From assembly GCA_903873705.1 (NCBI GenBank), contig CAIQPK010000009.1:1-64000 (forward strand): a stretch of DNA of 64,000 nt. The letters run 5' to 3'. This document shows positions 8,897 to 29,190 of this stretch, piece by piece. The translations under genes were made by a program, and so were the position numbers. The DNA comes from an uncultured Acidobacteriota bacterium (lineage in GTDB: Bacteria; Acidobacteriota; Terriglobia; Terriglobales; Acidobacteriaceae). Numbering within the stretch: position 1 is the stretch's first letter; each line of letters opens with the position of its first letter. The notes beneath the pieces were generated by a model. It made no database searches and had not been told where the DNA came from. It saw nothing but the letters and a program-made list of their open reading frames with translations.

Positions 8897-8960
8897 GTAG
8901 CGCCTTGCGGCGCGGTTGACCTAGGGCTTCGCCCTAGGCTGGTATGGGGCGCGCCTTCAG
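8897..8960. repeat. Dispersed palindromic repeat (copy 1)
   Basis: Two hairpins stand side by side, GCGCC-TTGC-GGCGC at 8900-8913 and CCTAGGGC-TTC-GCCCTAGG at 8920-8938, followed by CTGGTATGGGG. The second resembles a copy at 25275-25293 in which two stem positions differ with compensating changes. It lies in the 475-bp gap between the NHL-repeat gene and the pseudouridine synthase gene. Confidence 0.7.
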
Positions 8961-9008
8961 CGCTTTAAGGCAGAGGCCAACGTTACCGCAGCGGGAGTGC
9001 AAGAACAA

Positions 9009-25274: not shown

Positions 25275-25318
25275 CCTGGGCCTTCGGCCCAGGCTGTGAT
25301 GGGTCGGGCCTTTGGCCC
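25275..25318. repeat. Dispersed palindromic repeat (copy 2)
   Basis: The hairpin CCTGGGCC-TTC-GGCCCAGG (25275-25293) is followed by CTGTGATGGG and a second hairpin GGGCC-TTT-GGCCC (25306-25318). It parallels the element at 8900-8938, with two paired base changes in the stem. It lies between the DinB-like gene and the 54-residue membrane protein gene. Confidence 0.7.
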
Positions 25319-25358
25319 TCGGCTCTTGCTTTCAACGGAAGCAGCTGATGGTGATGGG

Positions 25359-26758: not shown

Positions 26759-27379
26759 CTACGCCCGTGCGAGGCGGGCGGCAACTGCGGCGGCGATGGC
26801 GGTTGCGGCCTGGGCCGGTGAGAGGTTTGCGGTTTCGATGCTGTGATGAGCGAGACGGCGGTAGAGAGGCTGGCGGGAGGCGAAGCGGGCCTGGGCGGCG
26901 ATGGGATCGGCGAAGAGGGGGCGGGATGTGGCGGCGGGGTCGGCTGCCTGCTGGGTGCAGCGGGCGGCGAGGGTGGCGAAGGGGGCGGCGAGATGGACGA
27001 CGACGGTGGCCGGCGTCTGCTCGAGGAGCAGGCGGTTGGTGAGAATTTCCGGAGCGCCGCCGCCGAGGGCGATGACGGTGTTGGCGGAGCCGAGCAGGGC
27101 GGCGAGGGCGGCGGTCTCTTCCTTGCGGAAGGCGGCTTCACCGCGCTGGGCGAAGAGTTCGGGGACGGAGAGGCTGGTGCGGCGTTCGATCTCGTGGTCG
27201 AGATCGATGAAGTGCCAGCCGAGCTGCGCAGCGAGCAGTGGGCCGATGGTGGATTTGCCCGATCCCATGAAGCCGGTGAGCACGATGCGCTGTGCGGGGC
27301 GGGGAGGACGGGATGTGCGGCGGAGGTGAGATAAGGGCATCGTGTGGGCTGCGGCAGGTGAAGTCTGTACTGCGTTCAT
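26759..27379 (-). CDS. aroK: Shikimate kinase
   Basis: The enzyme phosphorylates shikimate with ATP on the way to chorismate and the aromatic amino acids. The 206 residues (about 175 is usual) begin with a 33-residue extension. Then come the P-loop GFMGSGKSTIG, the shikimate-binding LDHEIERRT with the key Asp, RGEAAFRKEE with the conserved Arg, the ALGGGAP loop, and the lid arginine in RPLF. ATG 27379 has GGAG 7 nt upstream. The gene is preceded by a 180-nt leader with a short aromatic-rich reading frame and an intrinsic terminator, so transcription attenuation by aromatic amino acids is likely. Confidence 0.94.
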   Translation of the reverse strand: MNAVQTSPAAAHTMPLSHLRRTSRPPRPAQRIVLTGFMGSGKSTIGPLLAAQLGWHFIDLDHEIERRTSLSVPELFAQRGEAAFRKEETAALAALLGSANTVIALGGGAPEILTNRLLLEQTPATVVVHLAAPFATLAARCTQQAADPAATSRPLFADPIAAQARFASRQPLYRRLAHHSIETANLSPAQAATAIAAAVAARLARA

Positions 27380-27420
27380 TGTCGTTCTCCGGTGGTGGGT
27401 TGAGCAAAATGTTTTGCGGC

Positions 27421-27452
27421 AAAAGAAAAACCGCAACCCTGGTGGGCTGCGG
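27421..27452 (-). terminator. Intrinsic terminator in the aroK leader (attenuator candidate)
   Basis: On the minus strand a 9-bp stem (CCGCAGCCC with GGGTTGCGG, one G-U pair, loop ACCA) is followed by TTTTTCTTTT. It lies 28 nt after the leader stop codon and 42 nt before the aroK start. The segment GCGGCCCGG (27502-27510, minus) can pair with CCGAGCCGC (27449-27457, minus), with one mismatch, and so block the left arm. Confidence 0.75.
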
Positions 27453-27480
27453 CTCGGTGGATTTCGTTGCTTAGCTCTGG

Positions 27481-27561
27481 TTAGAGAGGCGCACACGTCC
27501 GCCGGGCCGCTGGGGGATACCAGTAGCTTGTAAATCGGGCGGAGATGCGGAACGTCGTCAT
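27481..27561 (-). CDS. Candidate aromatic leader peptide of aroK, 26 residues
   Basis: The minus-strand frame ATG 27561 to TAA 27481 encodes 26 residues with Phe at 4 and 10 and consecutive Tyr-Trp-Tyr at 13-15 (TAC TGG TAT), then PPAARR and a short end. Five aromatic residues in the first 15, including three in a row, directly before an intrinsic terminator and a chorismate-pathway gene, is the arrangement of a ribosome-mediated attenuator. No Shine-Dalgarno is visible. The ATG lies 8 nt after a candidate -10 box, so the message may be leaderless. The peptide itself should have no other role. Confidence 0.55.
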   Translation of the reverse strand: MTTFRISARFTSYWYPPAARRTCAPL

Positions 27562-27568
27562 CGGTAAC

Positions 27569-27597
27569 AGCGTAACGCGAGGTGGAGGGAAGTGCAA
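27569..27597 (-). promoter_or_regulatory. Candidate aroK promoter
   Basis: On the minus strand TTGCAC (27592-27597) and TACGCT (27569-27574) are 17 bp apart. The expected start of transcription, near 27561, coincides with the leader ATG. Each box matches the consensus at about half of its positions. Confidence 0.45.
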
Positions 27598-27612
27598 GTG
27601 ACGTGCGTCACA
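27597..27612. promoter_or_regulatory. CRP/FNR-family-like palindrome
   Basis: AGTGA-CGTGCG-TCACA fits the TGTGA-N6-TCACA pattern with one mismatch. Its centre lies about 43 bp upstream of the predicted aroK leader start, overlapping the -35 box, which is the class II activator position. Confidence 0.45.
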
Positions 27613-27645: not shown

Positions 27646-27822
27646 CTAGCGAGGCCTGGTCATTCTGGCGACGAGCCAGTAGCCGAGGCCAGCGCCGATC
27701 AGCGCACCGATGGGCGAGTAGATGCCGCAGAGGTTGCTGTTGGGCCAGAGCCAGTCGCAGGAAGGGATCGCGATGGCGTAGTAGCCGATGATGAGGCCGA
27801 GGATGGCGGAGAGCCACTTCAT
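27646..27822 (-). CDS. Small two-helix membrane protein, 58 residues
   Basis: The frame starts MKWLSAILGLIIGYYAIAIP, continues with a Cys/Trp/Asn-rich turn (SCDWLWPNSNLC), and has a second hydrophobic glycine-rich segment GALIGAGLGYWLVA before MTRPR. This is a normal hairpin membrane topology with two Cys in the loop. I do not recognise the family. A longer frame runs upstream but has no coding character before this Met. No strong ribosome site is seen. Confidence 0.6.
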   Translation of the reverse strand: MKWLSAILGLIIGYYAIAIPSCDWLWPNSNLCGIYSPIGALIGAGLGYWLVARMTRPR

Positions 27823-27979: not shown

Positions 27980-28297
27980 CTATTCGTCGTCCGGGCCTCC
28001 GCCAACCTTGATCTTGTTGGCGATGCTTTCCCACATCTTGTCGCCGACGGGTTCGTCGATGGCTTCCTCGGGTTCTTCGATGGAGAAGAGATCCTTGGCG
28101 GCCTTGGCGATGGCTTCGAGGTCGCGAACGAGTGCGGCGCAGGTGGGGTTGCCGGCGAAGAACTTCTCAAATTGCGGATCTTCGGTGAGCGGCCCCGTGG
28201 CGTTGTTGGCGATCAGGTCTGGCAGACGCGCTTCGAACTCGGCGGCGGTCATGTTGTCGAAATTCTCAGGGGTGTTCAGGGCGACTTGATCTGACAT
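27980..28297 (-). CDS. Sigma-factor partner protein (putative soluble anti-sigma)
   Basis: The 105-residue acidic, soluble protein begins at ATG 28297, with AAAGGAGG 7 nt upstream. Its A overlaps the TAA stop of the sigma factor gene (TAATG), so the two are made together. It has no membrane segment and no H-x3-C-x2-C zinc motif; a single Cys lies in NPTCAALVRDLEAI. The segment DNMTAAEFEARLPDLI looks helical. The coupling suggests an anti-sigma or co-regulator, but no domain match proves it. Confidence 0.7.
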   Translation of the reverse strand: MSDQVALNTPENFDNMTAAEFEARLPDLIANNATGPLTEDPQFEKFFAGNPTCAALVRDLEAIAKAAKDLFSIEEPEEAIDEPVGDKMWESIANKIKVGGGPDDE

Positions 28298-28953
28298 TAG
28301 ACGCCCTCCTTTCCGAGTTCTGGTGCAAATTGTTCTGGATTGCGCAACAGCTCGCGAAGCTTGAGGCGCGCTTTGTGCAGTTGCGATTTGCTGTTGCCGG
28401 TGGAGCACTCAAGCATGGAAGCGATTTCGTTGTGCTCGAAGCCTTCCACGTCATGCAGGACGAAGACCATGCGGTAGCCGGGAGGGAGCGAGGCTACGGC
28501 GCGCTCGAGGGTGACACGGTCCACCGATCCGGCGAGCTGCTGGTCGCGGGAACCGAAGTCGCGCTTGGGAGCGTCTTCTTCCGAGGGGTTGATGGTCTCT
28601 TCGAGGGAGACGAGGCTGAGGCCTTTCTTGCGGAGGTGCATGAGCACAAGATTGACCGTGAGGCGATGCAGCCAGGTGGAGAAGGCACTTTCTCCGCGGA
28701 AGCTGCCGAGCTTGCGATACAAGTGCAGGAAGGCTTCCTGCGTCATGTCCTCGGCTTCCGACACGTTGCCGAGCATGCGGAGGCAGAGCGTGTAGACGCG
28801 GCGCTTGTGCAGGGCGTAGAGCCGGGAAAAAGCGTCTGCGTCGCCGTTCTTGGCCAACTCAATGGCTTCGGCCTCGCCAGCGATGGGAGGATTCCGCTTG
28901 AATAAGCCGGCGGTTGGTTTTGTCTGCATTCTTGGTAGGCCTTCTAAGTTCAT
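28297..28953 (-). CDS. ECF-type RNA polymerase sigma factor (2)
   Basis: The protein has 218 residues from ATG 28953 (AAAGAG upstream); ATG 28929 is an alternative. Sigma-2 is seen in YTLCLRMLGNVSEAEDMTQEAFLHLYRKL and FSTWLHRLTVNLVLMHLRK. Sigma-4 is seen in LPPGYRMVFVLHDVEGFEHNEIASML with the recognition helix region CSTGNSKSQLHKARLKLRE. It differs clearly from the sigma factor at 15017. The target promoters are unknown; the only coupled gene is the small acidic partner downstream. Confidence 0.92.
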   Translation of the reverse strand: MNLEGLPRMQTKPTAGLFKRNPPIAGEAEAIELAKNGDADAFSRLYALHKRRVYTLCLRMLGNVSEAEDMTQEAFLHLYRKLGSFRGESAFSTWLHRLTVNLVLMHLRKKGLSLVSLEETINPSEEDAPKRDFGSRDQQLAGSVDRVTLERAVASLPPGYRMVFVLHDVEGFEHNEIASMLECSTGNSKSQLHKARLKLRELLRNPEQFAPELGKEGV

Positions 28954-29190
28954 CGAGCTCTTTCCGGTCCTTGCACTGTTCTGCCGGAAGGCTGTTCGGG
29001 TTAAGCGTATCCCAAAGCGAAGCATTCCGTTGCCGACAGTGTCGGGGATGGTTGGTTTGGACCTCATTAACTTGAGAGGGGATTTTGGCGGAGGGGGTTG
29101 TATTCAAGGGGTTAGGGGTCAGGAAAGGCGCTAAGAGCCTGGAGCGGTTGAGCCCAGAGGAAGTGCGGCAGCGAGTATAGCTGCAGGTGT

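Follow-up and report, generated by a model that had tools for sequence, protein, structure and literature searches.

Introduction

Most descriptions of leader-peptide attenuation concern Proteobacteria and Actinobacteria. In E. coli, trpL combines a leader peptide containing control codons with 1:2, 2:3, and 3:4 helices and a terminator before the gene; it senses Trp only and is located before trpE. In C. glutamicum, aroR precedes aroF, which encodes DAHP synthase. The available portions of the reports on aroR describe an aromatic leader peptide (Phe-Tyr-Phe) and attenuation in response to Phe limitation, with no effect of Tyr, and mention neither a Trp codon nor an aroK target (PMC11802643, PMC4046766). 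Leader peptides of Streptomyces lividans, including trpL1 and leuL, are transcribed without a 5' untranslated region; as far as the excerpted text goes, these mostly serve one amino acid or branch, and no pan-aromatic leader is described (PMC8079986). The uORFC-13-1 motif, known from 24 representatives in Acholeplasma and environmental sequences, is proposed in the available part of its description to be a Phe-sensing frame with a ribosome-binding site and a terminator before aroF (DAHP synthase) (PMC8632094). Leaders have also been surveyed in Actinobacteria (PMC1262725), and a terminator survey reports almost no functions found for attenuators in Acidobacteria (PMC2965389).

We analyzed a candidate leader upstream of aroK in a 64,000-nucleotide stretch of DNA from an uncultured Acidobacteriota bacterium (hereafter, the window). 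It resembles E. coli trpL in its leader peptide frame with putative control codons, its predicted helices (the 1:2 helix looking weak here), and its terminator before the gene, and differs in carrying Phe and Tyr codons beside Trp and in preceding aroK. Unlike aroR, it belongs to the Acidobacteriota and includes a Trp codon, and its sequence is distinct from that of uORFC-13-1. Two Acido-Lenti-1 RNAs in the window (Table 1) speak for the assignment to this phylum. Searches of the open-access PMC literature brought up no publication on attenuation by leader peptides in Acidobacteria and none on a leader of aroK.

Results

Layout of the leader upstream of aroK

The minus strand carries, in order, a promoter-like box, a 26-codon frame, an intrinsic terminator, the aroK ribosome-binding site (GGAG, immediately 5' of the gene), and aroK (Table 1). 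The frame with Phe4, Phe10, Tyr13, Trp14, and Tyr15 could be read directly, as originally predicted, and its Phe, Tyr, and Trp codons appear to supply the end-product codons expected of a leader-peptide attenuator. The terminator, first placed 28 nt after the stop codon, has a stem that begins 25 nt past it, with 27 nt to its GCCGC. As for the promoter-like boxes that had been proposed, a weak TTGCAC-17-TACGCT is present, but a generic promoter scan returned 0 sites. Judged from this sequence alone, the terminator did not stand above chance (3 found versus 2.7 expected in shuffles), so the case rests on the relatives.

Table 1. Positions of the leader elements, aroK, and other features in the window
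Feature	Position	Strand	Remarks
Promoter-like box	TTGCAC 27597-27592, 17-nt spacer, TACGCT 27574-27569	-	Box ends 7 nt 5' of ATG
Leader peptide frame, 26 codons, MTTFRISARFTSYWYPPAARRTCAPL	27561-27481	-	ATG to TAA; homologues in 21/26 genus aroK loci
Putative control codons Tyr13-Trp14-Tyr15	27517..27525	-	Tyr13 15 nt and Trp14 12 nt before GCGGC
Further putative control codons	Phe10 27534-27532, Phe4 27552-27550	-	
Segment 1, outer arm TCCGCC	27538..27543	-	Partner GGCGGA 27503-27498
Segment 1, inner arm CTACTGG	27520..27526	-	On Tyr-Trp codons; 6/7 pairs with CCAGCGG 27513-27507
Segment 2, CCAGCGGCCCGGCGGA	27498..27513	-	Includes antiterminator 5' arm GCGGCCCGG, 27510-27502
Predicted antiterminator rod	27449..27510	-	GCGGCCCGG paired with CCGAGCCGC
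Segment 3, CCGAGCCGC	27457-27449	-	Common to antiterminator and terminator
Intrinsic terminator	27421..27455	-	Stem 27455-27428, T-rich tail to ~27421
aroK, shikimate kinase	26759..27379	-	PF01202, E 6.3e-39; proposed regulated gene
58-codon hydrophobic frame, MKWLSAILGLIIGYYAIAIPSCDWLWP...	27646-27822	-	Just 5' of leader promoter
102-aa frame	27980-28288	-	No Pfam match; after the sigma-70 factor, possibly its partner
Sigma-70 family factor	28297-29067	-	PF04542, PF08281
Acido-Lenti-1 RNA (RF01687)	8920-8964	+	Above gathering score
Acido-Lenti-1 RNA (RF01687)	25275-25319	+	Above gathering score

Conservation of the aroK leader within the genus

The search for aroK covered the genome of the window and 60 relatives, 27 of them of the same genus. 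An aroK match was found in 26 of the 28 genus genomes, the two without one (G011 and G019) both being incomplete. Seven distant aroK relatives from a protein scan of the genome contigs were set aside and not used. The leader was present at 21 of the 26 genus loci (L001-L019, L021, and L024), each time with aroK downstream. These 21 leaders share the frame, CCAGCGGC, GCCGC, and the terminator, in the order RF[ST], Tyr/Phe and Trp codons, the invariant CCAGCGGC, and GCCGC and TGCGG of the terminator. The alignment upstream of aroK that had been suggested as a check on the original prediction finds both the short frame and the hairpins conserved.

Five genus aroK loci (L020, L022, L023, L025, and L027) lack the leader. 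Their genomes retain a leader of the same kind upstream of trpB (see below), and gain or loss of the aroK copy may thus have occurred during the history of the genus.

Homologous leaders upstream of other aromatic genes

A covariance model, R1, was built from the aroK leaders and was followed by models R2 and R3; the identity of the downstream gene was not used in building them. R1 matched 27 of the 28 genus genomes, and a second kind of match preceded trpB. In the genome of the window, the trpB leader is located at C20:31216-31367 (MRVCFSPSLFTFRYWPTVAATAD; E 1.6e-19 with R3) and is followed by trpB (TIGR00263), trpA (TIGR00262), DAHP synthase (TIGR01361), proB (TIGR01027), a gene of the aldehyde dehydrogenase family that we take to be proA, and a gene for prephenate dehydrogenase (PF02153). 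The placement of proB and the proA-like gene between DAHP synthase and prephenate dehydrogenase was noted at G000:C20 (locus L092, 8467-10904, plus strand). Among the genus trpB leaders, 21 of 22 are followed by trpB, and the remaining one is at a contig end; it is also the exception among all 43 genus leaders, 42 of which precede an aromatic biosynthesis gene. Weak R1 matches at C31 and C69 of the same genome were rejected as plain terminators after reading. Leader counts also exclude a 30-position match at C48 of this genome, R3 matches at C86 and elsewhere (E >=0.29), and a second weak match in G017 (C58).

Beyond the genus, R2 matched 69 of 150 family genomes, some by the terminator only. 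R3 matched 110 of 200 genomes of an order sample. In a class sample it matched 89 of 299 genomes, including 37 from outside the family, and in a phylum sample 41 of 396, including 6 from outside the class. In the family to class searches, 95 of the 96 examined matches outside the genus were followed by aroK, trpB, DAHP synthase, aroQ, or pheA, and the single remaining match (L198) was at a contig end. All six examined matches outside the class lie upstream of pheA and DAHP synthase, and in two of them aroQ, assigned by sequence match, comes first; one leader frame there reads MFVDDRSRFYFYFYFPPSRGRGSMRAD. PF00800 and PF01817 were the references for pheA and aroQ, respectively. The resulting total of 101 of 102 examined matches outside the genus covers 20 of the 37 genomes with matches outside the family and leaves out terminator-only partial matches and some second matches (for example, G157:C659, G093, G131, G130, and G169). 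That this element also occurs upstream of trpB in the genome of the window, and upstream of aroK, trpBA, DAHP synthase, aroQ, or pheA in relatives, points to a pan-aromatic regulatory family. Within it, aroK is one predicted target beside trpB, DAHP synthase, aroQ, and pheA.

Putative start site and control codons

All 43 genus leaders have the sequence TTG-N16-18-TAnnnT at 6-10 nt 5' of their ATG, where shuffles predict 0.08; they comprise 21/21 aroK and 22/22 trpB leaders (0.04 expected for each). Leaders from other genera had the same box in 34 of 69 cases and leaders from other families in none of 18, and it is thus either not general or replaced by different promoters there. Under stricter scoring, a promoter was counted for 33 of 130 leaders, compared with 1.4 expected. 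Shine-Dalgarno-like motifs precede the leader frame in 12 of 130 leaders. The position of the box suggests a leaderless leader peptide in the genus, with transcription likely starting at or adjoining the ATG. A start downstream of the terminator would have spoken against attenuation; the conserved promoter-like box 5' of the frame instead points to a start upstream.

Outside the genus, the leader start was set by the covariance model and not by the reading frame. There, 87 of 96 leaders start with ATG, 82 of these 87 carry the aromatic landmark (5 do not), and the landmark is in frame in 81 of the 82, at varying distances from the ATG. The single exception is L198, with a landmark-like match out of frame. 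The count over all leaders is 122 of 124, and it includes 42 genus leaders that are in frame by construction, so we quote frame counts for leaders outside the genus; 15 of 139 leaders were dropped from the frame count because they had no ATG at the match start or no landmark. Peptide length and the N-terminal part vary among relatives. As a side observation, one DAHP synthase leader (L139, 343-493, plus strand) has a stop codon directly after a Tyr codon (MHTKRFSSAFEYRY) and keeps the hairpin.

Phe, Tyr, and Trp make up 24.2% of leader peptide residues (770/3188 in 118 unique peptides). In 127 of 130 leaders, GCGG is preceded by an aromatic codon at a distance of 11-16 nt (9 of 139 leaders were dropped from the set used for this distance and for full-leader folding). 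The original prediction named Tyr and Trp as the amino acids sensed. The conserved codons agree with both, but Phe codons are conserved too, and the putative sensor is thus not restricted to Tyr and Trp. The leader might instead respond to general translation speed, or to Arg or Pro codons near Tyr-Trp, since Arg-Tyr-Trp and Pro codons are frequent beside the control codons and a ribosome slowed anywhere on these codons would act alike. We consider this unlikely because the conserved codons and the target genes belong to one pathway and because the distance of an aromatic codon from GCGG is fixed in nearly all leaders.

Three competing helices

Pairing was examined in 21 genus aroK leaders (alignment A1) and in 85 leaders of the wider set (alignment A5). 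The latter replaced A4, an alignment based on the covariance model that contained antisense partial matches. In A1, the antiterminator (GCGGCxxGG with CCGAGCCGC) was paired in 90.4% of cells, the terminator in 93.9%, and the outer 1:2 arm in 79.4%, with 4, 10, and 6 cells, respectively, changed on both sides. The five core antiterminator pairs are invariant in the genus and give no covariation; the flanking pairs do covary. In slid-register controls, up to 4 such cells were obtained for the antiterminator (at -1) and up to 6 for the 1:2 arm (at +2 and +3), and the antiterminator's own covariation score of 0.090 was surpassed by one slid score (0.093 at -3). Genus covariation is thus modest for these two helices, since slid controls equal or exceed it in single measures, whereas their pairing itself is far above that of the slid versions.

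In the wider set (A5), 97.8% of the terminator cells were paired and 50 had changed on both sides, compared with at most 18 in the slid controls. For the hairpin CCGCUAC:GUAGCGG, which overlaps the Tyr codon, 86.2% of cells were paired, with 17 cells changed on both sides against a slid maximum of 24 (at -1). Its full 7 bp were present in 65 of 119 leaders versus 6.8 expected after shuffling. CCGCTAC occurs with GTAGCGG (41 leaders), and CCGCTAT or CCGTTAT with ATAGCGG (12 leaders), indicating that the synonymous third base of the Tyr codon follows its RNA partner. Among genus aroK leaders, the inner 1:2 stem reaches 6/7 pairs, no more than the shuffled control, and the equivalent stem in leaders of the trpB and DAHP synthase types is often 7/7. 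A role of the 1:2 hairpin as a shut-off is supported for the trpB and DAHP synthase types and weak for the aroK leader of the window.

Antiterminator arms paired better with their own partner than with a swapped one (-18.15 versus -16.4 kcal/mol; 118 leaders, 1 of 119 having been dropped). None of 5000 permutations of 100 non-redundant leaders reached this preference, in a comparison from which relatedness was not removed. Swaps within leader types, likewise uncorrected for relatedness, reached it in 2/5000 permutations for aroK and in 0/5000 for DAHP synthase, aroQ, and pheA together; trpB leaders showed no difference (1260/5000). In the window, GGA/UCC pairs and an inner hairpin around the stop codon lengthen the antiterminator rod. 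The proposed pairing of GCGGCCCGG with CCGAGCCGC, overlapping a terminator arm, is supported, with the competing helices kept among relatives. As in known attenuators, an intrinsic terminator lies between leader frame and gene, and the antiterminator shares its 5' arm.

Terminator and antiterminator pairs also occur in riboswitches and T-boxes. In place of the ribosome, the terminator could be imagined to be switched by a T-box, by an RNA that binds a ligand, or by a protein that binds the RNA. However, no T-box or riboswitch of Rfam (release 15) reached its gathering threshold in the window, no Rfam family of any kind did so at the leader or at 15 related leader loci, and the conserved stretch 5' of segment 2 keeps its codon frame and has a high share of Phe, Tyr, and Trp. 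We regard such a switch as very improbable.

The two parts of the frame are conserved in different ways. In L005, L006, and L016, 1 nt fewer separates Tyr-Trp-Tyr from CCAGCGGCCCGGCGG, which puts the remainder of the peptide into another frame, but the 15 bases of CCAGCGGCCCGGCGG are identical. L002 has the same 1-nt loss and one C fewer in the arm. The antiterminator arm thus survives in all four frame-shifted genomes, which argues that conservation acts on the 5' part through its codons and on the 3' part through its RNA. That the frame, conserved and under a promoter-like box, encodes a small functional protein, with the terminator ending its own transcript and aroK having a separate promoter, hardly seems credible given that the peptide after Tyr-Trp changes frame in these four genomes with the DNA nearly unchanged, that peptide length and N-terminal part vary, that the 3' part of the frame pairs with the terminator arm, and that aromatic genes follow nearly every examined match outside the genus.

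Folding and ribosome position

Attenuation by the translating ribosome was modeled by folding nascent RNA up to segment 3. With a stall 15-27 nt before GCGG, the mean antiterminator probability was 0.94-0.98. A stall 12 nt upstream gave 0.965 with a 12-nt ribosome edge and 0 with a 15-nt edge. With the ribosome at the stop codon, the value is zero as a matter of geometry, the arm being covered, and not as a folding result. Untranslated nascent RNA had a mean antiterminator probability of 0.31. The untranslated leader of the window itself is predicted to form the antiterminator (0.989), and the value exceeds 0.5 in 10 of 21 genus aroK leaders, for which an off state without translation is therefore not predicted. 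E. coli trpL behaved in the same way under this treatment (stall, 1.0; stop codon, 0; untranslated, 0.088). Equilibrium folding of the complete transcript showed no switch, as the terminator wins even with a stall, and the same was true of E. coli trpL. Since the switch appears in nascent folding of both, the order of synthesis matters.

The original prediction raised the concern that a ribosome stalled on Tyr-Trp-Tyr might cover the antiterminator arm. Tyr13, Trp14, and Tyr15 are 15, 12, and 9 nt from GCGGC, so that a stall at Tyr13 would leave the arm free, Trp14 would be borderline, and the concern holds for Tyr15. In E. coli trpL, the Trp codons are 20 and 17 nt from the antiterminator arm, compared with 15 and 12 nt for the control codons here. 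The distances would suit attenuation, depending on a footprint of 12-15 nt. The available part of a leader gene survey gives a coverage of 12 nt downstream of the stop codon (PMC4833913), in agreement with the geometry used here.

Discussion

Very probably, the aroK 5' leader attenuates transcription by way of the translating ribosome and in this manner senses charged tRNA for Phe, Tyr, and Trp. The case is built on sequences, conservation, covariation, and gene neighborhoods, from which we infer the start site, stalling, termination, and readthrough. Aromatic codons are conserved, the competing helices covary in part, a promoter-like box lies upstream, and homologous leaders precede aromatic genes; the central claim of the original prediction is well supported by these comparisons.

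Transcription would begin at or adjoining the ATG of the leader frame. When aromatic amino acids are plentiful, the ribosome would reach the stop codon and cover segment 2; with segment 2 covered, segment 3 would pair with segment 4, the terminator would form, and aroK would remain untranscribed. A stall at a Phe, Tyr, or Trp codon 5' of GCGGC would leave segment 2 (GCGGCCCGG) free to pair with segment 3 (CCGAGCCGC) ahead of the synthesis of segment 4, a step that the folding supports, and aroK would be transcribed. In many relatives, the 1:2 hairpin on the control codons may hold the untranslated leader off; this hairpin looks weak in the leader of the window.

The best reading of the sequence comparisons is that this leader belongs to a homologous, multi-operon, pan-aromatic attenuator family with aroK among its targets, apparently new to Rfam and to the literature found. 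We also favor, with less assurance, the broader proposal that a single family of homologous leader-peptide attenuators, often leaderless and reading Phe, Tyr, and Trp, has spread across the operons of a single phylum and has the aromatic pathway as a whole under its control. Under this proposal, the points of control would be entry (DAHP synthase), trunk (aroK), the Phe/Tyr branch (aroQ and pheA), and the Trp branch (trpBA), and the codon mix of each copy, limited by the hairpin that overlaps the codons, would set the amino acid to which its operon responds.

Codons and a hairpin arm would here be made of the same nucleotides, which would explain why the choice among synonymous Tyr codons varies together with the RNA partner. 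The family yields a new covariance model for annotation and a prediction open to RNA-seq and reporter tests. If the proposed mechanism holds, one RNA family would tie Phe, Tyr, and Trp to multiple operons of a single pathway, aroK included.
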